Shown one piece after another: positions 29,400-41,527 of a DNA stretch of 64,000 nt. Made by a program: the position numbers and the translations under genes. Where the stretch lies: contig NZ_MDGR01000007.1 in assembly GCF_002742335.1 (NCBI RefSeq), forward strand, positions 4,282,501-4,346,500, given 5' to 3'. Position 1 is the first letter of the stretch. The number at the start of each line of letters is the position of its first letter. The notes under the pieces are model-generated. The model was not told the origin of the DNA. It saw nothing but the letters and a program-made list of their open reading frames with translations, and made no database searches. This DNA comes from Reichenbachiella sp. 5M10. Its GTDB lineage: Bacteria > Bacteroidota > Bacteroidia > Cytophagales > Cyclobacteriaceae.

Positions 29400-32300
29400 T
29401 TAAGCGGGTTCGGCGCTTTTTACTGAACTTGAAGTAGTTGTTTTTGTTTTGGATTGTACCCATGCCGTGGCTTTGTCTGCGATCTCGAAGGCTACAGGGA
29501 CAAGATAGATCGTCAGGCAGAGAGAGGACATCAATCCACCGATGAGCACCCAAGCCATGGCGTTTTTCCACTCGGCACCAGCACCTGCGGCGATTGCAAT
29601 CGGAATCATCGCAATCACCATGGCGATGGTTGTCATCAAGATTGGCCTCAATCGATCGTTGCCTGCTTGTACGACAGCATCACGAGTGGATAGGCCATCT
29701 CCTTTGAGCTTGATGGCAAAGTCCACAATCAGAATAGCATTTTTGGCGACAAGCCCTAGGAGCATAATCATACCTAGGATGGTGAATATACTCATCGTCG
29801 AGACTGACAAACCTAGGGCAAGCATCGCACCGATCACGGCTACAGGTATGGAAAGTAGTACCACGAGCGGGTAGACGAAATTGTCATAGAGTGCGACTAA
29901 GATGAAGTAGATCAGCAATAGAGAAATGCCAAAAGCACCACCTAACGCACCGAAACTTTCCTCTTGGTTTTTGACATCTCCACCCCATACGAAACTTACG
30001 GTGTCAGGAAAATCAGCAGCCGCCATTTGTTGTTGGATAGACTGGGTGACATTGCCGACCGGTACTCCCAGTGCAAAGGCTGTAACGCCGACTGATTTGA
30101 TTCTATCTTTTCGTTCCAGCATAGAGGCTGATGCACTTTGATTCACTTCGGCAAACTGACTCAGGGTGATTAGCTGACCTTTGGTGTTGATGAAAGGAAT
30201 CTGCTTGACATCCTCGGCATTTTTGCGATCAAACTTGGTGAGTTGTACCATGATGGGGTATTCTAGACCGTCCTCTCGGTACTCATTGTCGTCATTGCCT
30301 TGAAGCGAATTTTGTAGCGTAGCACCGACTGTGGCGACATCTAGTCCGAGCATGGAGAGTTTGTCCCGATCGATTTTGATTTCTACTTCGGGCACGCCGG
30401 TTTCTACGGATACATTGACGTCATTGGCTCCTGGTGTATGTTCGATCATATCTTTGACGCGATGCGCTACCTCTATCACTTCGTCGTAGTTTTCGCCTAC
30501 GACAGATACGTCGATTGGTGCAGTCCCCATGTTGACCATGCCTACCAACGAAACACCTACTTTGACACCTGCATATTGCGCTCTGATTTGGTTCATTGTT
30601 TCGATCATATATGCCTCAGTGTTCACATTTTTGAATTGTTCTTGATCCAATATGACATTGAGCTCAGACTTGTAGGGGTCTCCGAGTCCCGTGCCTCCGA
30701 TTCCAGAAGAGGGCCCGCCGACGTTGGTCAAGATCATCTTGACCTCTGGTTTGGAGGCGATCCAGTTTTCAATTTTACGAGTACGGAGATTATTGGCTTC
30801 TATACTGGTGACTTTGCTGTATTCGAGGTTGAGTTTGAATTCACCTTTGTCTCCAGATGAGAAAGTCTCTGATCCGATCACTCCGAGACTTCCGATCCAT
30901 CCTGTCATACCAAATAGAGCGAGGAGGATAGCAAAGAGTACCCATTTTTTGTTCATGATCCATTTCAGGGAATTGTTGTATCCATCGTTGATCCAGGTCA
31001 GTCCTGATTCGAATTGGATCAAGATCCATTGAAATGGGTTTTTTGGATTGAGGTGGGTGATTTTAGAAAATTTAGACATCAGCCATGGAATCAACGTGAA
31101 AGAGACCAAGAGACTGAACAAGGTCGCTACAACGATCGTCCACGAAAACTGGCGGAAAATATCTGCGACAAAGGACTCGACCATGGTCACAGGGATAAAC
31201 ACGATGACAATCACCAAAGTAATAGACACTGCTGTCAATCCAATCTCTGCGATACCATCGATGGCAGCTTTTTTGGGAGACTTGCCCATTTCCATGTGTC
31301 GGTAGATGTTTTCCAACACTACAATCGAGTCGTCTACGAGGATACCAATCACGAGGGACATGGCGAGCAGGGTCATGAGATTGAATGTGTATCCCATGGC
31401 GAACATAAAGGCAACTGTCGCAAGTAAGGACGCTGGCACAGCGATCATGACGATCAGTGCGTTTCTAAAACTGTGTAAGAAGAGCAGCATCACTACCGCA
31501 ACGAGTATAATGGCGATCTCTAAGTCGTGAAGGACGGCATTGACCGCTTCGAGGGTGAATTCTGCGTCGTTTTGTGCGACGGCAAAGTGGAGGTCCTGTT
31601 TGTCGTAATGCACTTCTAGTTCTTCGAGTTTGGCGAGTACGGATTCGGATACTTCTACCGTGTTTGCATCTCCTTGTTTTTTGATGCGAAGTAGGATGGC
31701 ACTTTTTCCATTGAGTCGGGCGATACTTTCGGCATCTGCTATGTCGTCGGTGACTCTTGCGAGGTCTTTGAGCCGTACGGTTCCGCCGTCTTCGGTGGTC
31801 GAGACGATGAGCTCTCGGATTTCCTCTACATTGGCGAATTTGCCCGAGATCCGTACCGTCACCGCTTCTCCGTTTCCTTTGACTTTCCCTGTAGGGAAAT
31901 CCAAATTGGCATAAGAGATCGATCGAGTGACCTGCAGTAGGGACAAATTGTAGTACGTAAGTTTTTCGGGATCTACGCTCACGCTGATGGTGCGCTGCTC
32001 TCCTCCTAGTATGTCTATCGATGCGACTCCTTTGAGCTGCTGGAGCTGAGGGATGAGTTTGTCATCCATCTGGGCATAGAAGTACTTGCCGTCCATGTTG
32101 GAAGTCGCACTGATCTGCAAGATGGGCAGATCGTTGGGCGAGATTTTGGAGATCGATGGGTTCTCTGCATCGTCTGGTAGATCACTGATGACGTTGTTGA
32201 TTTCACGTTGTGCATCTTGCATCATCAGGTCTAGATCTGTTCCACTTTTGAAGTTGACAATCACGATCGAGGCGCTCTCGACGGACTTGGAATTGATCTC

Positions 32301-32534
32301 ATCGAGATTGTCCAATTCGGAGATGGCGTCTTCTATTTTTTTGGAGACCGAGGACTCTACTTCTGAGGGTGCCGCTCCAGGATAGATGGTCGTGATCGTC
32401 AAGGTAGGGCGAGACATCTCTGGGAGGAGTTCATAGCCGATTTTGTTGAATGACAAAAGCCCCGCGATCGACGTGAGCAAAAAGATCACGAGGATGAATG
32501 ACGGTCTTTTGATCGAAAATTCTGCAATATTCAT
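29400..32534 (-). CDS. RND-family efflux pump inner-membrane permease
   Basis: A 1044-residue proton-driven transporter of the HAE1/AcrB type. It begins MNIAEFSIKRPSFILVIFLL, a standard RND start. The TM4 proton-relay pair lies in GILVDDSIVVLENIYRHME and the TM10 Lys in LGLVAKNAILIVDFAI. Two large periplasmic porter regions separate the helix bundles. It exports hydrophobic or amphipathic compounds with the adaptor and TolC protein encoded just upstream; the substrate is unknown. Fourth gene of the tetR-tolC-adaptor-RND operon, 22 bases after the adaptor. Confidence 0.96.
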   Translation of the reverse strand: MNIAEFSIKRPSFILVIFLLTSIAGLLSFNKIGYELLPEMSRPTLTITTIYPGAAPSEVESSVSKKIEDAISELDNLDEINSKSVESASIVIVNFKSGTDLDLMMQDAQREINNVISDLPDDAENPSISKISPNDLPILQISATSNMDGKYFYAQMDDKLIPQLQQLKGVASIDILGGEQRTISVSVDPEKLTYYNLSLLQVTRSISYANLDFPTGKVKGNGEAVTVRISGKFANVEEIRELIVSTTEDGGTVRLKDLARVTDDIADAESIARLNGKSAILLRIKKQGDANTVEVSESVLAKLEELEVHYDKQDLHFAVAQNDAEFTLEAVNAVLHDLEIAIILVAVVMLLFLHSFRNALIVMIAVPASLLATVAFMFAMGYTFNLMTLLAMSLVIGILVDDSIVVLENIYRHMEMGKSPKKAAIDGIAEIGLTAVSITLVIVIVFIPVTMVESFVADIFRQFSWTIVVATLFSLLVSFTLIPWLMSKFSKITHLNPKNPFQWILIQFESGLTWINDGYNNSLKWIMNKKWVLFAILLALFGMTGWIGSLGVIGSETFSSGDKGEFKLNLEYSKVTSIEANNLRTRKIENWIASKPEVKMILTNVGGPSSGIGGTGLGDPYKSELNVILDQEQFKNVNTEAYMIETMNQIRAQYAGVKVGVSLVGMVNMGTAPIDVSVVGENYDEVIEVAHRVKDMIEHTPGANDVNVSVETGVPEVEIKIDRDKLSMLGLDVATVGATLQNSLQGNDDNEYREDGLEYPIMVQLTKFDRKNAEDVKQIPFINTKGQLITLSQFAEVNQSASASMLERKDRIKSVGVTAFALGVPVGNVTQSIQQQMAAADFPDTVSFVWGGDVKNQEESFGALGGAFGISLLLIYFILVALYDNFVYPLVVLLSIPVAVIGAMLALGLSVSTMSIFTILGMIMLLGLVAKNAILIVDFAIKLKGDGLSTRDAVVQAGNDRLRPILMTTIAMVIAMIPIAIAAGAGAEWKNAMAWVLIGGLMSSLCLTIYLVPVAFEIADKATAWVQSKTKTTTSSSVKSAEPA

Positions 32535-32556: not shown

Positions 32557-33627
32557 TTAGTAGGATACTTCGACACCATCGCTCAAGTTGATTTGACCGT
32601 TGGTTACTACTATATCGTCTAGGGTGAGGCCTTCTTTGACTTCTATTTTTTGCTCAGAGGTCATGCCGACTTTGATGGGTTGGAGGATGGCTTTGCCTTC
32701 TATGATTTTGTAGACTTTGGCGTCTTTGGAGGAACCCATCATGGCGGTCGCTGGGATGGTGTGACTTGTGCCGTGAGGGTGGCTTGTATGCTCTATCCAT
32801 CCATACATCCCTGATTTGATCGGGTATTCTGTTGTGTTTTGGATTTTGACTTGTACGTCAAACTTGTGTGCTTCGTCTGCTTGATCACTGACCATAGTGA
32901 TGGTACCCGTATAGGAATGTGTAGGGTATACATCGGATTTGACCGTCACTTGCTTGCCTTTTTCAAAATCCATTACTTGATCTTCGGGTACACTGATGAC
33001 GAGTTTGAGATGGGAGATGTCTATGAGTGACCCGAGTGATCTGCCCGGAGCGAGTACTGACCCTACATCAAAGGTGCGCGTAGCTAGAGTACCAGCGAAG
33101 GGAGCTTTGATTTTGGTGTTGCGGAGTTGTTTGTTGAGCAATTTGAGATTGCTCTCTGCGCTGGCCAGTTGTAAGCTTGCTTTCTCCAGATTGATTTTGG
33201 CTACTGCGTTGTTGTCTGTTAGTTTTTGGTACCTATCGTATTCGCGTTTGGCATCTTCGTAGGCAGCGGTTGCTGCGATGAGCTGAAAACGTATTTGTTC
33301 AGAATCCACGGTAGCGATTAATCCATTTTTGGGCAGTTGGTTTCCTTCTTGGGCAGAGATGGCCAGTACTTCTCCCTGTGTTTGAGAGGTGATGGTGATG
33401 GCTCTGTTGGCCTCAAAGGTTCCCAAGTATCTTCTCGTTTCTTCCAGTTGGGTGTCTTCTACTTTGGCGATTTTGACGGGCACTTTGATCGAGAAGTCCC
33501 GAGTATACACGCGTGCTTTGACTTCTTCAGCGTTGCCTAGTAGCGAATAGATGGTCCACCCTCCGAGTAGTGTGACTGCCGCTATTGCGACGATGATTTT
33601 GCTTGTTTTAGATTTTTGGATTTCCAT
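32557..33627 (-). CDS. RND efflux periplasmic adaptor (membrane fusion protein)
   Basis: A 356-residue protein with an N-terminal membrane anchor, a lipoyl-like half ITITSQTQGEVLAISAQEGNQLPKNGLIATVD, an alpha-hairpin around residues 115-165, the returning lipoyl half TKIKAPFAGTLATRTFDVGSVL, and beta-barrel and membrane-proximal domains. It bridges the inner-membrane pump and the TolC-type channel. Located 28 bases after tolC and 22 before the pump. Confidence 0.94.
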   Translation of the reverse strand: MEIQKSKTSKIIVAIAAVTLLGGWTIYSLLGNAEEVKARVYTRDFSIKVPVKIAKVEDTQLEETRRYLGTFEANRAITITSQTQGEVLAISAQEGNQLPKNGLIATVDSEQIRFQLIAATAAYEDAKREYDRYQKLTDNNAVAKINLEKASLQLASAESNLKLLNKQLRNTKIKAPFAGTLATRTFDVGSVLAPGRSLGSLIDISHLKLVISVPEDQVMDFEKGKQVTVKSDVYPTHSYTGTITMVSDQADEAHKFDVQVKIQNTTEYPIKSGMYGWIEHTSHPHGTSHTIPATAMMGSSKDAKVYKIIEGKAILQPIKVGMTSEQKIEVKEGLTLDDIVVTNGQINLSDGVEVSY

Positions 33628-33655
33628 TTCTATATGATTGACTTGATGATGAGAC

Positions 33656-34978
33656 TTAATTGTAGTGGGTTAATAGATGACCTTCTGCTTTGGCTAGGTC
33701 TAGTTTGGCTTGCTGGAGGCGTACCCATGAATTGAGATAGTTGGTTTGTGCTTCTGTGAGTTCATTTTCTGATTCGATGATCTCCTGCACCCCCACGACT
33801 CCTTCACTGTACTGCATCTGGATGTTTTGGTAGATGTTGGTAGCGAGCTCCATGGACTGTTTTTGATTGGCAACCTCACGTTGGTGGACTTTGAGCTTAG
33901 AGAGGGCATTGATCCTTTCGTTTTCAATGCTTCTCTGGGTCATTTCCAATTGTGCGTTGAGTTGTTTCATTTCTATTTTCTTTTGTGTTTTTTGAGAGCT
34001 CTTGACCATGCCGTCAAATAACATCCAGTTCAGTTTGAGCCCCACGTAGCTAAAGTCATAGTGCTCGTAGTAGTTTTCGGACTGGTCACCATAGCCCATC
34101 ACTCCATAGGATGCGACAGCCGATAGGTGTGGCAGGTAGCCTGAGTTGATCTGCTTCTCTTGTAGATCTAGGACTTCTTTTTGTTTGTTGAGTAGTTGTA
34201 CTTCACTACGGTTTTCGTAGTGGAAAGCATCCTGAAAACTGAGTGCAGATAAATCTGGGTTCAGCTGATGTTCGATCGTCAATCCTTCGTCGGTATCCAT
34301 ATTGAGCAGGAGTTTGAGGGAGTTGATCAAATAGATGTAATCAGCCTGTAGTGTAGCGGTATGGTTGTCCAAGCTGGACTTGTTGATGACGAGTCGATCT
34401 ACATCGGTCGTATTGACTAATCCGCTCTGCATCATCATGCGCGTAGAAGCAATGAGTGTATCGAGTGATTGACTGTTGTCTTCCAGCATTTCGATTTGTT
34501 TGGCAACTACCTGTGCATTGTAGTAGGTAGATGCTACCCGAAACGTGATATTTTCCTTGGTCTGTACGTATTGGATTTCTCCCATTTCGTTGATGGTCTG
34601 GGCCGCTTTGATGCCAACGTTGAGACTAGGGTCGAAAATTACCTGTTCCAGTTGCAGTGCGTAGGTGGACTGATGTGGCGTACCGAAACTTGCAGCGGCA
34701 TACCCTTCTGCCCCTGGACTGAAGGCACTTGACGGGATCACCGTGGTGGGTAGCTGGGTATATAGGTCATACTCTGCCCCGAAACCTAATTTTGGTAGTG
34801 CAGCGCGTTTCACTTCTTTGACCTGCTCATCATAGAGCAACTGGTCGTAGCGGCTGTTTCCTATTTCTAGGTTTTGCTCCAGAGCAAGGCTTACACATTC
34901 GTCAAGTGTGTAGACTTTTTGCGCGTGACTTAGCAGTGGCGTCAGTAGCATAATAAATGTTGCAATGTTGATTTTCAT
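33656..34978 (-). CDS. TolC-family outer membrane efflux channel
   Basis: A 440-residue exported protein (signal peptide ends SHAQ) with the two-fold OEP repeat: YTLDECVSLALEQNLEIGNSRYDQLL at the start and long amphipathic helices rich in Gln, Glu and Leu. The end is NELTEAQTNYLNSWVRLQQAKLDLAKAEGHLL. It is the outer-membrane duct of this tripartite pump. An operator-like palindrome ends 12 bases before its ATG. Confidence 0.94.
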   Translation of the reverse strand: MKINIATFIMLLTPLLSHAQKVYTLDECVSLALEQNLEIGNSRYDQLLYDEQVKEVKRAALPKLGFGAEYDLYTQLPTTVIPSSAFSPGAEGYAAASFGTPHQSTYALQLEQVIFDPSLNVGIKAAQTINEMGEIQYVQTKENITFRVASTYYNAQVVAKQIEMLEDNSQSLDTLIASTRMMMQSGLVNTTDVDRLVINKSSLDNHTATLQADYIYLINSLKLLLNMDTDEGLTIEHQLNPDLSALSFQDAFHYENRSEVQLLNKQKEVLDLQEKQINSGYLPHLSAVASYGVMGYGDQSENYYEHYDFSYVGLKLNWMLFDGMVKSSQKTQKKIEMKQLNAQLEMTQRSIENERINALSKLKVHQREVANQKQSMELATNIYQNIQMQYSEGVVGVQEIIESENELTEAQTNYLNSWVRLQQAKLDLAKAEGHLLTHYN

Positions 34979-34990
34979 TTTGATTAATTG

Positions 34991-35010
34991 TTTTAAACGT
35001 TTGTTTAACT
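34991..35010 (-). promoter_or_regulatory. TetR-type operator copy 2, upstream of tolC
   Basis: TTTTAAACG-TT-TGTTTAACT has the same 9-2-9 layout as the palindrome upstream of tetR (TTTTAAACA-AG-TGTTTAAAA), with 15 of 18 half-site positions identical. It lies between the tetR stop and the tolC start. A weak promoter match (TTG-N18-TATTCCTG, minus strand, 35039-35011) ends at its edge. It probably lets the regulator also control tolC-adaptor-RND directly. Confidence 0.65.
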
Positions 35011-35030
35011 CAGGAATAAATTTTTTTAGA

Positions 35031-35669
35031 TCATGACAAGGGTTTCAAAAATGCTTCCATGATGCTGAGCGTGGTGGCTTTCCAGTGTGGTTCGTAGCTT
35101 TCATAGCTTTCAAATCCAGCCGCTGCTAGTTTTCCTGTTTTCGTCAGTATTTTTTTGGAGATAATAGGAAAGACAATCATAGAAAATAGGGCCATCTGAA
35201 AGTCAATGGCTTTGATGGGTCGAATCTTGCCGCTGTGATAATCTAAGTCTAAGGTCGCTTGTAGCTGCTGTGTTTCTATTGCCGCTTGCTCTTTGTTGAG
35301 GTCAGAGAGCATGTCGAGCAGATTTGAGTTATAGTGTGTCTCGCTAAGTATGAATATGGGTAAGCCTTGATCATTGTTGATTTGATGGTTGAGCCGATCG
35401 ATGTATGTTTTGATACGGTCTAGTAAGTCGCGTGAGGTATCGTTGAGGATGCTCAGTCCGTCTTTGGTATAGGATCTGAATTTCTCCTCGAAAATGGACA
35501 GAAATAGCTTCTCTTTGCTTCTGAAATAATAATTGACGAGTGCGACGTTTACCTCGGCCTTTTCGGCTACTTTTCGCATGGTTGTCCCTTTCATACCTAG
35601 CTCTGAAAACAGCTCACGTGCTGCTTCTTTGATTTTTATTTCGGTGCTATCGAGTGATTCTTGGGACAT
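35031..35669 (-). CDS. TetR/AcrR-family repressor of the efflux operon
   Basis: A 212-residue regulator with an N-terminal helix-turn-helix: IKEAARELFSELGMKGTTMRKVAEKAEVNVALVNYYFRSKEKLFLSIFEEKF, the classical TetR DNA-binding region. A helical ligand/dimer domain follows. It is first in the operon, with tolC 52 bases downstream. A perfect palindrome covers the -33 element of its own promoter and a second copy precedes tolC, so it most likely represses itself and the pump until a substrate binds. The inducer is unknown. Confidence 0.94.
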   Translation of the reverse strand: MSQESLDSTEIKIKEAARELFSELGMKGTTMRKVAEKAEVNVALVNYYFRSKEKLFLSIFEEKFRSYTKDGLSILNDTSRDLLDRIKTYIDRLNHQINNDQGLPIFILSETHYNSNLLDMLSDLNKEQAAIETQQLQATLDLDYHSGKIRPIKAIDFQMALFSMIVFPIISKKILTKTGKLAAAGFESYESYEPHWKATTLSIMEAFLKPLS

Positions 35670-35685
35670 AGTATCTATTGGACAG

Positions 35686-35716
35686 CAAACGTAATTTGAA
35701 TGTTTGTTTTAAACAA
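35686..35716 (-). promoter_or_regulatory. Promoter of the tetR-efflux operon
   Basis: On the minus strand TTG (35716-35714), a 20-base spacer and a perfect TACGTTTG (35693-35686) match the Bacteroidota TTG-N19/21-TAnnTTTG consensus. The -33 TTG lies inside the palindrome at 35707-35726. The tetR ATG is 16 bases beyond the -7 element. Confidence 0.8.
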
Positions 35717-35726
35717 GTGTTTAAAA
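35707..35726. promoter_or_regulatory. TetR-type operator copy 1 (perfect palindrome)
   Basis: TTTTAAACA-AG-TGTTTAAAA is a perfect 9-bp inverted repeat around two bases. It overlaps the -33 element of the tetR promoter, an arrangement that would block RNA polymerase when bound. Confidence 0.8.
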
Positions 35727-35754
35727 TTATTTTTATAGATAATTTTTTACGAAG

Positions 35755-36447
35755 CTAGTTGAGCGTATAGCTGAGCCGTATTCGTATGATGTTGTCGTTG
35801 AGGCCATAGTCGTAATCTGTCACTCGCACAGTTTGCCAGATGTAGTGGAGGCCTATTTTGAATCGTTTAGTGATTTTGTTGCCCAAGACTGCCTCCCAGC
35901 GGTGCTGGCTTCCTAGTGAGTATTGTATACTGTTGGTGAGGGTTACAAAGGTCTCCCATGTGAGCTCTGCATAGAAGTTTTCTTTGCCGAAGAGGGTGAA
36001 ATTTGGTGGGGCTAGACTTAAGCGGTAGCGCATTCGAGTTTGGTTTTCTTTGTTTTCGTTGATATAGAAAAAGCGCTCCTCAAATCGTAGGCGGTGGTTG
36101 AATTTTAGGATTTTGGTATTGGGCCAAAAGAGCATGGCTTCTTGAGCAAAACGAAGTTCATTGAGGTTCGAGGATTCGGTATTGAAGGTTTGAAAATTAG
36201 AAATCGCGAAGCAGAGATTGTACAAGGAATTGTTGGACCACTTGATCGTAGGTCTGTAGTACATTTGATGAAATTTGTAGTCGCCCATTGAGGTTCGGTA
36301 GCCAAAGTCCCCTCCTACCTTGGTGTTTTCCCCCAGTTTGTACCATAGCGTCAGGTCTGTCCAGCCTTGGTGTCGGGTGAAGATCTTTTGGCCCCAGCAA
36401 AATTGAGAAAGGAATAAGAAGGCGAAGAGAGTGAATATTGGTTTCAT
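35755..36447 (-). CDS. DUF2490-family outer membrane protein
   Basis: About 230 residues from the ATG at 36447 (MKPIFTLFAFLFLSQFCWGQ, a signal peptide). The rest is a short beta-barrel pattern with W-x-D-L-x-L-W-Y-K near the start, and the family-like R-x-R-x-E-x-R-F (HRLRFEERFF) and M-R-Y-R-L. It ends IIRIRLSYTLN. DUF2490 proteins are small outer-membrane barrels of unknown role. An in-frame start at 36483 would add 12 non-signal residues. It lies upstream of the tetR promoter and is not obviously part of the efflux operon. Confidence 0.8.
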   Translation of the reverse strand: MKPIFTLFAFLFLSQFCWGQKIFTRHQGWTDLTLWYKLGENTKVGGDFGYRTSMGDYKFHQMYYRPTIKWSNNSLYNLCFAISNFQTFNTESSNLNELRFAQEAMLFWPNTKILKFNHRLRFEERFFYINENKENQTRMRYRLSLAPPNFTLFGKENFYAELTWETFVTLTNSIQYSLGSQHRWEAVLGNKITKRFKIGLHYIWQTVRVTDYDYGLNDNIIRIRLSYTLN

Positions 36448-36672
36448 TGGGCTAAAACTATCACTCTCTTGGTTAAAATGCACTTCTTGCTGTGCTTTCC
36501 TTCAAAAAAACTCCAATAGTGCGATTTGGATGGGAGCAATGCTTGGCTCAGGGTGCGTGAGTTTTGGCACTCTACTTGTGTGAAACTACACGGCTTATGG
36601 AAACTCATTCACTGCTTAAAAAGAAGGACATCTATGATCAATTTGCTTTATTTGACAGTAGAAATTAAAGTA

Positions 36673-38106
36673 ATGAAATACTACGCAATATTATTATTGA
36701 TTTTTTGCTCTACATGCTTGGTATGGGCACAACCCCATGAGTACGATGAGCGCTTGGGCCAAGAAGCTGCTTTGCAGGTAGAACGTACCCTGGGGCTGTA
36801 TGAAGACGAGGCATTGAATCGCTATGTTGATGAGGTCGGTCAACGACTCATTGCTGCACTCAACCACACCTATTTTGATTATGAGTTTGCGATCATTGAC
36901 GACCCTACTCCCAATGCGTTTGCTTTGCCTGGAGGATACATCTATGTGACGCGTGGTTTGCTGGCCCTCGTACAAAGTGTCGATGAGTTGGCTTGCGTGC
37001 TGAGTCATGAAGTAATTCATGTGGATGAGAGGCATTCGGTTAAGCAAATGAAGCGTAGTATTTTGCCAGCCCTGCTACAAGTACCTGGGCTACTCGTGGG
37101 AGCAGTGGCCGGAGAAAAAGCAGGAAGTATAGTCAGTGCTCCTTTTGATTTGGGTTCTAGCTTTTTTACTTCTACGTATAGTCGTAAACATGAAACACAA
37201 GCAGACCAAATGGGTGTTGCATTGGCAGCTAAAGCAGGGTTTGACCCCAATGCTTTGAGCCCGATGCTGGATCGGATCATGAAATGGGAAGAAACTCGAA
37301 CCGAACAAGAAGAGAAAAAAAATTACTTCAGCACTCATCCCTATACCCCTGATCGAATCAAGAAACTGAAACCAGCGATCAGTGAATTGACTTGGTCGTT
37401 GAATAGCCTACACGAAGAACCCGTTCTCCCTTTGCTTGATGGCTTGGTTTTTGGAGAAAATCCCGCGAAGGGAGTTTTTGTAGATAGTGTGTTTTTGCAC
37501 GCTGATATTGATTTTAGTGTCGTGTTTCCAAGTGACTGGATCTACATCAACCAGCACGATGCAGTAGGGGCGATGAACTCAGATAAGACGGCATTGGTGT
37601 ATTTGACACTAGAGGACACTACTCAATCCCCCGAACAATGGGGTATAGATTTTGTCAAACGTGTGAAGAGAACTGGCGAGTTGAAGGCCTCAGCAGAAAA
37701 GGTGGAGGTCAATGCTCGTGAGGCATTTCTAGTCTCGGTGGTTCAGCACGGAGAAGGGGAAGATATCTATGCACATTTTATTTGGATAGAGATGGGAGAT
37801 CATGTGTATCGCATCACCGCCATCAAAGCGGGAGGTTTCAAAGAGCAACTCAAAAGGACAGCTCTCTCATTGCACCCTTTGACAGAAAGTGAAAAGCAAA
37901 TGATTGAGGTAGAGCAACTCTATTTGACCAATGTCGAGGAGGATGGATCATGGGAAGCCTTGGCTGAGCGTACCGAGAGTACATTAGAACCCAAATACCT
38001 TCGAGTACTCAATGGTAGCCGTTCTCACTCAGCTCCTCCTAGTGGTGAGAGAGTCAAAGTCGTCAAGAGTTACCCTTATGTGCCAGAGGATTCATCAGAT
38101 CAATAA
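36673..38106 (+). CDS. M48-family zinc metalloprotease (BepA/LoiP-like)
   Basis: About 477 residues from the ATG at 36673 (MKYYAILLLIFCSTCLVWAQ, signal peptide). The zinc motif is HEVIH (His112), within ELACVLSHEVIHVDERH. The third ligand is the Glu of KHETQADQMG. FALPGGYIYVTRGLL is typical of the family. These are periplasmic proteases that act on misassembled outer-membrane proteins. A C-terminal ~200-residue region (HADIDFSVVFPSDW onward) resembles a PsbP/lipoprotein-like domain. The longer frame from 36526 adds a non-signal leader. Its 3' end overlaps the convergent fusion-protein gene by 12 bases. Confidence 0.9.
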   Translation: MKYYAILLLIFCSTCLVWAQPHEYDERLGQEAALQVERTLGLYEDEALNRYVDEVGQRLIAALNHTYFDYEFAIIDDPTPNAFALPGGYIYVTRGLLALVQSVDELACVLSHEVIHVDERHSVKQMKRSILPALLQVPGLLVGAVAGEKAGSIVSAPFDLGSSFFTSTYSRKHETQADQMGVALAAKAGFDPNALSPMLDRIMKWEETRTEQEEKKNYFSTHPYTPDRIKKLKPAISELTWSLNSLHEEPVLPLLDGLVFGENPAKGVFVDSVFLHADIDFSVVFPSDWIYINQHDAVGAMNSDKTALVYLTLEDTTQSPEQWGIDFVKRVKRTGELKASAEKVEVNAREAFLVSVVQHGEGEDIYAHFIWIEMGDHVYRITAIKAGGFKEQLKRTALSLHPLTESEKQMIEVEQLYLTNVEEDGSWEALAERTESTLEPKYLRVLNGSRSHSAPPSGERVKVVKSYPYVPEDSSDQ

Positions 38107-40635
38107 TTGATCACGCACGTTTTGTTTCCAGATTTTGTATCCTTTGGGGTTGAGGTGGAGCATATCCTCTACAAATAGGTCTGTTCTTGGCCGTCCATCA
38201 GGCGAGAGCATGTGTTCGTACATTTCTATCCAGTGCATATAGTTTCGTTCTTCTACGAAGGAGCGCAGTAGGGCATTGGAGGTATTGATGTGGTGTAGCA
38301 AATACTCACGGCTTGGGCTCGGCTTGATGGAGATGACGGTGATCTGTGCCTCGGGGCTGTGTCGTTGGATTTTTTCTATCAAGAGTGAAAAGTTCATGAG
38401 TACGTCCTCAGGCGATTGGCCGTTGCTGAGGTCGTTGTCCCCTCCGTACAAGACGTAGGATTTGGGATGAAACTGCTCAAAGAGCCGTTCGAAATAGAAC
38501 AAACACCACTGATACGATGATCCACCAAACCCCAAGTTGATGGCGTTTTTGTCTGCAAGGTCCGTCTCGAGACTGTCCCATAGTCGTATGGTACTACTGC
38601 CATAAAAGGCGACCGAATCTTCCGTCCCCTGTGTAGCAATTTTTTCTTTGAGTGCGTTGATCTCATCTTCAAAAAGCAATTGAGCACTGTTTTCGTTGGC
38701 GATTTCTTGACTGAGTTCTTGGGTGTCTTTTCTGAAAGTCATCTGGTACTCACGCAAGAACTCCTTGACAGATGTTGTACCATACTCTTTCATTTTTTCA
38801 CTGAGTTTGAAGGGTTTTTTGATTTCGCAGGCAAATTTGAACGCAGTGATTCGCTTGTCAAAATTGGCCATGATAATGGGGACGATGAAGGGTTCGTGCT
38901 CCATTTTTTCGATCACTTTGAAGATCCCCGATTTGAAATGACTCGGTGAGTGCTCTGTCGGGTGCGAACTGCCTTCTGGGCTGATGATGATGTTGTGACC
39001 AGCGGTCAAAGCGTCATTGATTTGATCAAAAAATGCTTGATGCCTAATTTTTTTCTGTTCGGGACTTTCGATGAGTACGTCCGAATCGGGTGTGTAGACA
39101 TTGATATAGCCCAGTTTGTTGTAGTAGTTTTCATGAGCATATTCTTCGGATTTTCCGATACGAACGACCCGTTGTGCATGTTTTCCATAGTTCTCAAAGA
39201 TCAGCGAACTCAAAAAATGTGAGTCCAAAGTGATTTGGAACTGATTGGGCAGCGTGTAGTAGGGTTCATTGAGCAGGTGGTTGTAGATGAAGACACAGCC
39301 TGAGTTGGGAGGGATGTTTTCGAGCCCTTTGATGTAGATCGATGGGATCGAAAAAGCCTTGCGACAGGCTTTGATACAGTCCAGTTGTACCTCTTCTAGA
39401 GATTTGTTCTCATCACTTTCGGCTACACTGCTATAGATGTCTTGTAATGCACGGTAGAAATTCGACTCTTTTTGTGTTTTGTGTAGATTGTCGAGACAGA
39501 GTGAGGCCAAATTCTTTTCAGGGCCCATTCCTTTCAACTCGGCTTGGTGCAGCATGTTGATGGCTTGAGGAATCGTGAGTTTATCTTCGAGCAACACGGG
39601 CACCGAGTGGAGCGGAGAGTGTACCGACAGTTTGGTACTGTTGCTGTTGATGAGTGTGCTTGCGACGAGTAGCTCCTCGTTGAACTGGGTGGCAATCAGT
39701 CTAGTACGTACGGCGCGTAGCTGGTTGTTGATCAACCATAGGATTCTTTTTTGAAAGCTTAGGGCGAATTTTGGGTGTGCTTTGCAGTGAGCTTCGAGGT
39801 TGTCTTTTGGGATGTATAGTACGACGGCTTCTTTCGTCACGTGGGAGGTCATCGCACTTTTGACTCCTAGCAGACTGGAGGAACTGACCAGATAGCCAGG
39901 CGTAGAAATCGAGCGAAAGGGTACTTTGTAGGTCTTGTTGGTTTCCATGCTGAAGTTCATTCTTGAGTATTGAATTTCGCCGGATTCAAGCAGGAATATA
40001 CCCTTCTTTTGTTCGTCTTGGCTGATCACTATGTCGTTGACGAGGTATTCTCTACGTTGCATCGAGGTAGCTAGGACAGCAAGATCTTTTTCGTCAAACT
40101 CCTCAAAAAATGGAGATTGTAGTAGCAGGATGACTTTGTCGATTTCGTCTCGTTCTATATGTGACAAATAGCCGTCTGAGGAAGTGTCAATTTCTAAAGA
40201 TTGGAGCGCTGCTGAGGTATTGGCAAATAGCTCACTGGTGTCTTCGACAAACTTGTGTGAGTGGTTGTTGAGAAAAGTGAAAAAAGCGATGGCCAATTCA
40301 ATGTCTGCGTCGAGACAGGCGATGAGTTTTTGGGTTTCCCATTCGAGTAGGATAGCATGGTCTGATGCTACGCGAGCTGTGGTTTCGTTGCGGTACGGTG
40401 CAATGAAAGCATCCATACCGATCGGTGCGTAGATGGATTGACTCATGCCTGCGAGGAGCTCTTTGTCATTGCTATGTAGGCTTTGGTGAAAATGTACCGT
40501 TCCTTCTAGCAGGATGTAGAATGTATCTACTCTGCTAAATTGCTTTTTGAGCGTATCTCCTTTTTTGCAAGTGACCTCTTTGCCGTCAAGGATGAGTTTA
40601 TCAAGCGGGTAGGGTAGCTTTTCTGTCATGTCCAT
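38095..40635 (-). CDS. Multidomain protein: two cNMP-binding-like domains, acyltransferase, SGNH hydrolase
   Basis: An 846-residue cytoplasmic protein with no signal peptide. Residues ~15-130 and ~175-300 each look like a cyclic-nucleotide-binding domain (YILLEGTVHF; GIFLLESGEIQY). Residues ~430-620 resemble a PlsC-type acyltransferase, with FIYNHLLNEPYYTLP where the H-x4-D motif is expected and IISPEGSSHPTEHSP matching the E-G motif; the canonical Asp is replaced, so activity is uncertain. Residues ~672-846 are an SGNH/GDSL hydrolase: FYGSSTIRLW (nucleophile Ser681), NLGFGGSSYQW, GGDNDL, and DMLHLNP (Asp824, His827). The combination suggests a nucleotide-gated lipid-remodelling enzyme, which is inference. 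Confidence 0.8.
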   Translation of the reverse strand: MDMTEKLPYPLDKLILDGKEVTCKKGDTLKKQFSRVDTFYILLEGTVHFHQSLHSNDKELLAGMSQSIYAPIGMDAFIAPYRNETTARVASDHAILLEWETQKLIACLDADIELAIAFFTFLNNHSHKFVEDTSELFANTSAALQSLEIDTSSDGYLSHIERDEIDKVILLLQSPFFEEFDEKDLAVLATSMQRREYLVNDIVISQDEQKKGIFLLESGEIQYSRMNFSMETNKTYKVPFRSISTPGYLVSSSSLLGVKSAMTSHVTKEAVVLYIPKDNLEAHCKAHPKFALSFQKRILWLINNQLRAVRTRLIATQFNEELLVASTLINSNSTKLSVHSPLHSVPVLLEDKLTIPQAINMLHQAELKGMGPEKNLASLCLDNLHKTQKESNFYRALQDIYSSVAESDENKSLEEVQLDCIKACRKAFSIPSIYIKGLENIPPNSGCVFIYNHLLNEPYYTLPNQFQITLDSHFLSSLIFENYGKHAQRVVRIGKSEEYAHENYYNKLGYINVYTPDSDVLIESPEQKKIRHQAFFDQINDALTAGHNIIISPEGSSHPTEHSPSHFKSGIFKVIEKMEHEPFIVPIIMANFDKRITAFKFACEIKKPFKLSEKMKEYGTTSVKEFLREYQMTFRKDTQELSQEIANENSAQLLFEDEINALKEKIATQGTEDSVAFYGSSTIRLWDSLETDLADKNAINLGFGGSSYQWCLFYFERLFEQFHPKSYVLYGGDNDLSNGQSPEDVLMNFSLLIEKIQRHSPEAQITVISIKPSPSREYLLHHINTSNALLRSFVEERNYMHWIEMYEHMLSPDGRPRTDLFVEDMLHLNPKGYKIWKQNVRDQLLI

Positions 40636-40746: not shown

Positions 40747-40816
40747 TTTTTGATTCAACCTAGATGAGTCACGTTCTAGAGGTAATCTTCATGTAGGTGG
40801 GGTACTTTTGCAAGTG

Positions 40817-41527
40817 ATGGATGGATACCTACGTCTACATGGAGAAGAGCGGGCGGAAAATTTGAGGAGTCGTATAGACGCACTGCGCCGAGAGCTGAGT
40901 GATATAGAAAGAGTGACGCGTGTCTTTGAGGATATCCTGCGTGGTGAACTAGGCGATCTTATCATTCAAGAGCAAGAGTTGGCTGAGCTGTACAAGAGGG
41001 TTCAACGGGCCAAGAAGGCGAAGCGTTTGGCCCAACGTAGGCGGGGCAAGAGATACAAAGAACCAAAGGGCCTGAAGCTAGTCAAGCAGGTGAAGTCAGG
41101 CTCAGACCTAAATCAACAGGAACTTAAGAAGCTTTATAGGGAAGCTATGGTGCATGTTCACCCTGACAAGTTTTCTATGGAGGAGGATATGCAGGGTTTA
41201 GCGACTTTAGCTACGACTCAATTGATTGAAATCTACGAATCAGGTGATTTACAACGTATGATACAGTATCATGCATGTGTCATGAAGGGACATGCTTTGG
41301 ACGAGTCAAAGGAACGTTCCCTTATTCAGTTGGCCCCTTTGGCTTATTTGGAGCAGGAATTTGAAACCATTCGGGGCAATTTGTCTGCGGCAAAAAACAG
41401 GCAGGTCTATCAGGTCCTGCAGAATTATGCTGACCCGATGACTTATGTCGTGGAGTTGCAGCGATACTATACGGACCGTATTGCCAAACTCAAGAAGCGT
41501 ACGCGTAAGGCGGACAAGGGTGAGTGA
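40817..41527 (+). CDS. J-domain-like protein with coiled-coil N-terminus
   Basis: About 236 residues. The N-terminal ~60 residues are a charged, probably coiled-coil helix (LRSRIDALRRELSDIERV). A very basic stretch follows (KRVQRAKKAKRLAQRRRGKR). Then comes LNQQELKKLYREAMVHVHPDKFS with the HPD motif (about 115-117), as in the J domain that stimulates Hsp70. The rest of the J domain is degenerate and there is no G/F or zinc region, so it is a type III-like J protein at most. The client is unknown. ATG 40817 is preferred; a TTG three codons upstream is also in frame. Confidence 0.7.
   Translation: MDGYLRLHGEERAENLRSRIDALRRELSDIERVTRVFEDILRGELGDLIIQEQELAELYKRVQRAKKAKRLAQRRRGKRYKEPKGLKLVKQVKSGSDLNQQELKKLYREAMVHVHPDKFSMEEDMQGLATLATTQLIEIYESGDLQRMIQYHACVMKGHALDESKERSLIQLAPLAYLEQEFETIRGNLSAAKNRQVYQVLQNYADPMTYVVELQRYYTDRIAKLKKRTRKADKGE

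Follow-up and report, generated by a model that had tools for sequence, protein, structure and literature searches.

The subject of this work is a single gene in the window, by which we mean the whole 64,000-nucleotide stretch of the marine bacterium Reichenbachiella sp. 5M10 (contig NZ_MDGR01000007.1, positions 4,282,501 to 4,346,500). On the minus strand, an open reading frame with an ATG start encodes a protein in which two domains of the cyclic nucleotide-binding (CNB) type and a connector are followed by a PlsC-like acyltransferase (AT) domain and an SGNH hydrolase domain. The gene is the joined form of a conserved two-gene pair, and its AT domain lacks the aspartate of the HX4D box and keeps a histidine and a glutamate that we propose as catalytic partners. 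Every module is known; what appears to be new is the combination CNB-CNB-PlsC-SGNH. The features of the gene, in window coordinates, are the following.

38095..40635, minus strand: whole open reading frame of the CNB-CNB-helical-AT-SGNH fusion, 846 residues and a stop codon.
40291..40596, minus strand: CNB-type domain 1, about residues 14-115, from PF00027 and PDB profile matches.
40390..40392, minus strand: Arg82 codon, the sole classical phosphate-cassette residue kept (Arg in 24/24 AT members).
39736..40125, minus strand: CNB-type domain 2, about residues 171-300, from PF00027 (best stretch 195-286), PKG/PKA-R structures and its match to domain 1.
39361..39735, minus strand: putatively helical connector, about residues 301-425, without known family by profile comparison.
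38716..39360, minus strand: PlsC-like AT domain, about residues 426-640, from PF01553, hhalign and 5kym.
39277..39279, minus strand: His453, predicted catalytic base in motif I NHLxN (His in 24/24).
38974..38976, minus strand: Glu554 in the PEG motif, which we propose as partner of His453 in a charge relay (Glu in 24/24, and PatA analogy).
38656..38715, minus strand: AT-SGNH junction, residues 641-660, the least conserved stretch in the comparison with R. agariperforans.
38098..38655, minus strand: SGNH hydrolase domain, like lysophospholipase L1 and PAF-acetylhydrolase Ib, residues 661-846, from Pfam and PDB profiles.
38593..38595, minus strand: Ser681, predicted nucleophile (G-S-S), in 20/20 SGNH rows.
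38164..38166, minus strand: Asp824 of the SGNH triad, in 20/20.
38155..38157, minus strand: His827 of the SGNH triad, in 20/20.

Judged by Pfam and profile searches, all four module identities hold, and the order CNB-CNB-AT-SGNH given by an earlier sequence-only reading of this DNA was borne out segment by segment. With the whole window protein, PF00027 (cNMP_binding) matched two stretches at 38.1 bits (cut-off 27.5); domain 1 alone scored 22.2 bits, which is under that cut-off. PF00027 nevertheless covered domain 1 in 14/14 family members at E ≤ 0.1, and the domain 1 profile matched solved CNB structures (3mdp at E 2e-8, DNR, PKA-R and CRP). The profile of domain 2 matched PKG and PKA-R structures, and the two domains matched one another (hhalign probability 98.7). 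At the other end of the chain, PF13472 (Lipase_GDSL_2) scored 51.9 bits against a cut-off of 32.9, and the SGNH profile matched 7pzg and 6njc at E 4e-18 and PAF-acetylhydrolase Ib at E 4.5e-13 and weaker. The connector profile gave four PDB matches at E 1.3-2.7, to designed-protein entries, and is unrelated to PlsC by profile comparison (hhalign probability 0.3); low-confidence models suggest that it is helical.

The AT identity required the most care. PF01553 (Acyltransferase) matched the whole window protein marginally, at 23.3 bits with a cut-off of 23, and the AT region alone at 27.7 bits. The same family matched 14/14 AT regions at E ≤ 1 and 12/13 CNB-CNB-AT proteins at E ≤ 0.01. When the AT profile was compared with nine PlsC-like proteins from the class that have HX4D, the hhalign probability was 98 (E 2e-13), a comparison that is not blind because those nine are the profile's own best matches; one of the ten open reading frames of this set (501 residues, with masked letters) was omitted. 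Three of the nine, scanned singly, gave PF01553 at 81-97 bits. The best PDB profile match of the AT was T. maritima PlsC (5kym), weak at E 0.084, yet collinear over motifs I and III. AlphaFold2 models of the window and R. agariperforans proteins had mean pLDDT values (the model's own per-residue confidence) of 31.7 over the full length and 41.0 over the AT region, too low for use. A Foldseek search with the low-confidence AT model yielded nothing at E ≤ 0.001, and the best 50 of its 237 matches included no acyltransferase, which is uninformative either way.

The fusion is genuine. The window protein and its orthologue in Reichenbachiella agariperforans are 79% identical, with 0.13 nonsynonymous differences per site (pN) and 0.78 synonymous differences per site (pS), the synonymous sites being near saturation and the modules all alike. 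As pN is far below pS in every module, the entire chain is under purifying selection and is no chance reading frame. The junction at residues 641-660 is the exception in identity, with 50% over its 20 residues compared with 77-83% in the other modules, and the gene boundary of the two-gene relatives falls at this same junction.

The sequence-only reading had called the H-x4-D box altered, and it is: the window protein reads NHLLNEP, in which Pro occupies the Asp position and is directly preceded by Glu. Among the 24 AT members, motif I takes the form NH(L/I)xN, and the HX4D position (+5) holds Asp in none and Glu in two; HX4D is kept in all nine PlsC-like control proteins. His453, Asn456, Arg492, Glu554, Pro586, Asp593 and Arg595 are invariant in 24/24, Asn456 being the residue at H+3. 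Within the CNB-CNB-AT protein, conservation across the order is highest in the AT, where 40 of 215 columns are invariant (19%); the CNB and helical parts reach 5-7%, and the first linker has no invariant column. This count covers the protein without SGNH in 13 of 19 rows, six near-copies having been omitted.

Lipid acyltransferases that do not rely on HX4D offer a model for such a site. According to the accessible part of the PatA study, a His126-Glu200 relay, with the glutamate in block 3, replaces HX4D, the Ala mutants of both residues are inactive, and the two stand 74 residues apart (PMC4792965). LpxJ, as described in the accessible part of its report, is without HX4D/E, and a His61/Asp132 dyad across blocks I and III has been proposed (PMC6148475). 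The spacing from His to the PEG Glu is 72 residues in the PlsC-like set and 101 in the CNB-CNB-AT family, which has extra residues between. Judged by the spacing of 74 and 72, PatA Glu200 probably matches the PEG Glu, and Glu554 is therefore the natural candidate for the relay partner. On invariance and this analogy, we propose that His453 pairs with Glu554.

The alternative at this point is an AT without catalytic activity that binds a lipid or acyl-CoA and in this way regulates the SGNH lipase or directs it to its place of action. The missing HX4D Asp fits this: an acid is absent from that position in 22 of 24 members and from +4 as well in 15 of 24, and H+3 is occupied by Asn throughout. 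However, His453, Arg492, Glu554 and the residues of the P-E and V-P motifs (Val not counted) are kept in 24/24, PatA is an example of an active enzyme of this sort, and an AT without SGNH is kept as a solo protein in 4/8 genomes of the genus. We therefore regard a dead AT as fairly unlikely. The binding-only acyltransferase suggested by the sequence-only reading is possible but not favoured, given the strong conservation of the AT and the activity of the HX4D-divergent PatA; the conservation of His453 and Glu554 in 24/24, in a pairing of the kind used by PatA, argues that a dead domain is not the best reading.

The SGNH active site is complete. Ser681, Gly704, Gly732, Asn734, Asp824 and His827 are invariant in 20/20 SGNH rows, the window included, and Ser in block I, Gly in block II, Asn in block III and Asp-x-x-His in block V were each found in all 20. 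The triad Ser681/Asp824/His827 is thus intact, and its earlier numbering was right. The SGNH module might be a thioesterase or a non-lipid editing enzyme that cleaves acyl-thioesters or the acyl esters of sugars or proteins, with the AT acylating a small molecule. The top SGNH profile matches are bacterial entries named Sialate O-acetylesterase / Lysophospholipase L1, and no pathway genes in the neighbourhoods point to phospholipids. Against this, PAF-acetylhydrolase Ib subunits, which act on lipids, are also among the matches, and the AT belongs to the glycerolipid acyltransferase superfamily; we consider this explanation very unlikely.

The distribution of the family shows that the fusion stands beside a more common two-gene arrangement. 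We take the order to be Cytophagales from the taxonomy of the named members, and the samples comprised 390 genomes of the order, 395 of the class and 296 of the phylum. The full CNB-CNB-AT protein occurs in 17 of the 390, the window's own genome included, and in the 16 others SGNH is the next gene. With the own genome set aside, no full-length match was found in the 395 class genomes (E ≤ 1e-20) or in the 296 phylum genomes. In the phylum sample, 109 genomes match at E ≤ 1e-8, and the matches listed outside the window's genome span the CNB part only (profile positions up to 335). One genome survey scored three candidates per genome, and absences in it are soft. The CNB-CNB-AT(-SGNH) family is rare. 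Two further two-gene loci lie on a Persicobacter megaplasmid and in the genome G1021, two viral-contig scans found no relatives, and one genome-contig scan found one locus. Only one of 72,556 plasmid records carries the pair, a 1.58-Mb Persicobacter replicon typed as non-mobilizable, and spread by plasmids was rejected on this basis.

In all, 28 AT loci were found, namely 18 two-gene, 6 fused and 4 solo loci, the last forming one paralogue clade; one locus (L003) is the same gene as that of G1014, with identical DNA, and was counted once while being present in alignments and trees. SGNH is fused or adjoining in 24 of the 28. In the 18 two-gene loci, the SGNH gene is directly downstream on the same strand with gaps of -35 to +56 bp, and in 15 of them the gap is within 20 bp or the overlap is up to 29. 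Within the genus, the open frame is fused in 6/8 genomes, the window's included, the other five being 82, 80, 79, 55 and 38% identical; the other 2/8 gave no match at 1e-30. A tree of the 24 AT parts requires at least two changes between the two-gene and the fused state on well-supported branches, and the fusion of genome G1020 groups with two-gene relatives on long branches. Long branches (L100_f with L108) enter into this result, which a single fusion together with a single split would also produce. The SGNH tree, with 15 paired and 15 unpaired rows, gives two changes, and one change in 42% of bootstraps, and by this tree a single origin of the paired SGNH proteins is not settled.

The AT and SGNH distances are correlated, with r 0.56 when each genus is represented by a single row (11 rows; a value this high in 7 of 5000 permutations) and r 0.93 (15 rows) or 0.78 (11 rows) in less strict mirror-tree comparisons that include several rows per genus. 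The close adjacency and the repeated joining are good evidence that the two products act together, and the AT and SGNH parts probably work together.

The close pairing, together with repeated fusion or splitting, would also fit a direct hand-over, in which the AT takes an acyl group and passes it to the SGNH serine for transfer to an acceptor in the cytosol. Such a relay has been proposed for AT3-SGNH and PatB-type O-acyltransferases. AT3-SGNH is a known fusion in which the final transfer step is believed to fall to the SGNH domain (PMC9558356, in the part accessible). In that same account, however, AT3-SGNH has a membrane domain of ten helices and carries its SGNH domain outside the cytoplasm, whereas the window protein is without a clear membrane span or signal peptide by hydropathy, its AT is of the PlsC superfamily and its SGNH module is closest to hydrolases. 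An acyl relay of this type is thus unlikely.

A plain hydropathy scan of 16 AT and 15 SGNH rows, made with no dedicated predictor, gave no clear membrane span or signal peptide. The fusion protein is most likely soluble and cytosolic.

The role of the CNB domains was the part of the sequence-only reading that changed most. It had proposed nucleotide control, and this claim is weakened, since both cassettes are non-canonical and three of nine carrier genomes are without a class III cyclase match. In cassette 1, Arg82 is present in 24/24 members, and the ribose-binding Glu position (74) is Trp in 15, Met in 5 and Leu in 4. In cassette 2, the Glu and Arg positions are both replaced in the window protein and most members. 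A phosphate-binding cassette of the kind sought, by a pattern that we take to resemble PS00889, was found in 0/24 members compared with 13/19 control CNB loci; a much looser GE..R pattern matched 4/24 members, as a bare pattern match regardless of context.

A classical switch, in which binding of cAMP or cGMP (or Pycsar-like cCMP or cUMP) to the CNB pair would activate lipid remodelling, has to be weighed against these cassettes. The CNB folds are near PKA-R, PKG and CRP, the invariant Arg82 is a classical residue, six of nine carrier genomes have a class III cyclase match, and the window's own genome has one class III cyclase match and one SMODS nucleotidyltransferase match. In addition, of four AT homologues scanned with PADLOC, one (L071) matches the PycTIR model at E 1.5e-5. 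However, two of the three carriers without a class III match are 99-100% complete, and the same three gave no SMODS or class I cyclase match either, class III, class I and SMODS being the groups that the search covered. No cyclase was found among the neighbours scanned with Pfam (9, 10 and 10, overlapping), with many neighbours outside the scan, and PADLOC gave no match for the window protein. Canonical cAMP/cGMP control is therefore not supported, and we judge the classical switch quite unlikely. A place in Pycsar, as a CBASS effector or in another anti-phage system was rejected on the same PADLOC and neighbourhood results.

Taking the modules, their conservation, the gene pairing, the fusion and the residue patterns as observed, we infer a sensor-gated acyl-exchange machine that is most likely soluble and cytosolic. 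We hold this reading tentatively, at somewhat less than even confidence. The SGNH module would hydrolyse an acyl ester, the likeliest substrate being a lysophospholipid or some other acylated lipid, and the PlsC-like module would transfer an acyl chain from acyl-CoA or ACP onto a lipid hydroxyl. Both activities together would make a deacylation-reacylation cycle of the Lands type. His453 would act as the base, with Glu554 of the PEG motif as the charge-relay partner that replaces the missing HX4D Asp, and the two CNB folds would gate the AT/SGNH pair through a ligand whose recognition probably differs from the classical recognition of cAMP/cGMP. In Reichenbachiella, the two partner genes have become one. 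The stronger statement, that an HX4D-less PlsC using His453-Glu554 and an SGNH hydrolase form a soluble acyl-exchange or relay unit under a tandem sensor of something other than cAMP/cGMP, fused more than once, is possible and rather doubtful.

Several points weigh against the acyl-exchange machine or parts of it. Loss of the HX4D Asp would abolish activity in most PlsC enzymes. An acid stands at +4 in 8/24 members, the Glu457 of the window included, and at +4 or +5 in 9/24; a shifted local dyad through this acid is possible, and Glu554 need not partner His453. The strict AT-SGNH correlation is weaker than the others, and shared species history alone could explain it. A CNB-CNB-AT paralogue without an SGNH neighbour exists in the 4/8 genus genomes mentioned above, and all four of these paralogues have the PEG Gly changed to His or Asn (PEH/PEN). 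Between the window and R. agariperforans proteins, the AT is not more conserved than other modules (77.7% identity, compared with 83.3% in CNB domain 2 and 82.4% in the connector). The hydropathy peak of 1.87 at window residues 104-122, compared with 1.1-1.6 in the other 15 AT rows, may leave room for membrane contact of the fusion protein. Beyond the pair, no neighbour in the neighbourhoods compared is shared across lineages or names a pathway.

The solo paralogues deserve a note of their own. In the window's own genome, the fusion is accompanied by a solo CNB-CNB-AT paralogue that is 43% identical to it and lacks an SGNH partner; the existence of such a paralogue suggests that the AT is also useful by itself. 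Upstream of the solo paralogues, in the opposite orientation, lies a gene of about 255-270 residues, which in L101 belongs to the LamB/YcsF family.

L070, 8391-10349: solo CNB-CNB-AT paralogue, present also at loci L101-L103.

The surroundings of the gene vary among the loci. In the window, the fused gene on the minus strand and an M48 peptidase gene on the plus strand overlap by 12 bases at their 3' ends (38095-38106). The divergent upstream gene at 40808-41527 has a partial J-domain-like match of 18 bits, under the cut-off, and no counterpart was found at the R. agariperforans locus. About 1.6 kb past the 3' end of the fused gene, an RND efflux operon lies in both the window and R. agariperforans. 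Its membrane-fusion, outer-membrane channel, TetR and DUF2490 genes (window 32557-36483) are 97-99% identical to those of R. agariperforans, the RND pump gene at 29400-32534 being outside the stretch compared, whereas the other shared neighbours are 55-79% identical, with one small gene at 89%. This difference makes a recent transfer or recombination of the efflux cluster likely. In genome G672 (L075, 10702-16222), outer-membrane channel, RND pump and membrane-fusion genes lie directly upstream of the pair on the same strand, and the pump and fusion protein are distant homologues (24-29%) of the window-side efflux genes. Among the neighbourhoods compared, efflux genes are near the fusion or pair only in the window, R. 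agariperforans and G672, and a link to efflux was set aside as probably coincidental.

In five genomes of the genus g50 (L078, 4308-7844, and L079-L082), the pair is immediately preceded on its own strand by a gene for a WD40-caspase protein of about 1180 residues, and a caspase-domain reading frame also lies upstream in the scanned short loci of that genus. The WD40-caspase gene is without a homologue in the other neighbourhoods compared and was not counted as part of the system. In G1018, a gene of the phage-integrase family stands on the 3' side of the fusion (L099, 43-1281), and the neighbours are unlike those of other fused loci.

Each module resembles a known system, and each system differs from the fusion. 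Like PlsC/LPAAT, represented by T. maritima PlsC (5kym), the AT has collinear motifs I and III, the PEG motif, the His and the motif-II Arg, but it is without the HX4D Asp and has the connector and CNB domains ahead of it. The SGNH module shares its fold family and catalytic blocks with the PAF acetylhydrolase Ib and lysophospholipase L1-like hydrolases, which are stand-alone proteins not known to have an acyltransferase partner on the chain. CNB domain 2 weakly resembles TIGR03896 (cyc_nuc_ocin, 44.8 bits; cut-off 161) and the family 2B encapsulin model NF041163 (17.6 bits; cut-off 400), and membership in both was rejected, as the scores are far under the cut-offs. To our knowledge, PatA and LpxJ carry neither CNB nor SGNH modules. 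As far as the accessible parts of their reports go, mycobacterial PatA uses, and LpxJ is proposed to use, a block III acid away from HX4D as the AT would (PMC4792965; PMC6148475), a likeness of PatA drawn through published motif descriptions.

Two known fusions come closest in layout. In AT3-SGNH proteins such as OafB and OatA, an acyltransferase is followed by a C-terminal SGNH domain on one chain, but AT3 is a membrane protein of another superfamily, the SGNH domain is extracytoplasmic and the accessible part of the review describes no CNB domain (PMC9558356). A Pfam scan of the window protein at E ≤ 0.1 found no AT3 family, and hydropathy, used with no topology predictor, showed no run of membrane helices. 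Neuropathy target esterase has CNB-type domains ahead of a (lyso)phospholipase, with nucleotide binding unproven there too; it differs in its patatin hydrolase, its membrane anchor, its three CNB domains and, in the accessible part of the report, the absence of an acyltransferase (PMC6995513). The sequence-only reading knew of no described system with the order CNB-CNB-PlsC-SGNH, and this agrees with our search, in which neither the fusion nor the gene pair was found in the open-access literature (most subscription journals lie outside that search).

Most of what is known about the control of acyl chains in bacterial membranes concerns synthesis and transcription. If the sensor pair is tied to an acyl-adding and an acyl-removing module, the protein would be a direct switch on lipids, and its CNB domains seem to have changed their ligand. 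The acyl hand-over between acyltransferase and SGNH domain is called unclear in the accessible part of the AT3-SGNH review (PMC9558356), and the present fusion would provide a single-chain and possibly soluble model for it. The family would also be suited to probing how catalysis proceeds without HX4D.

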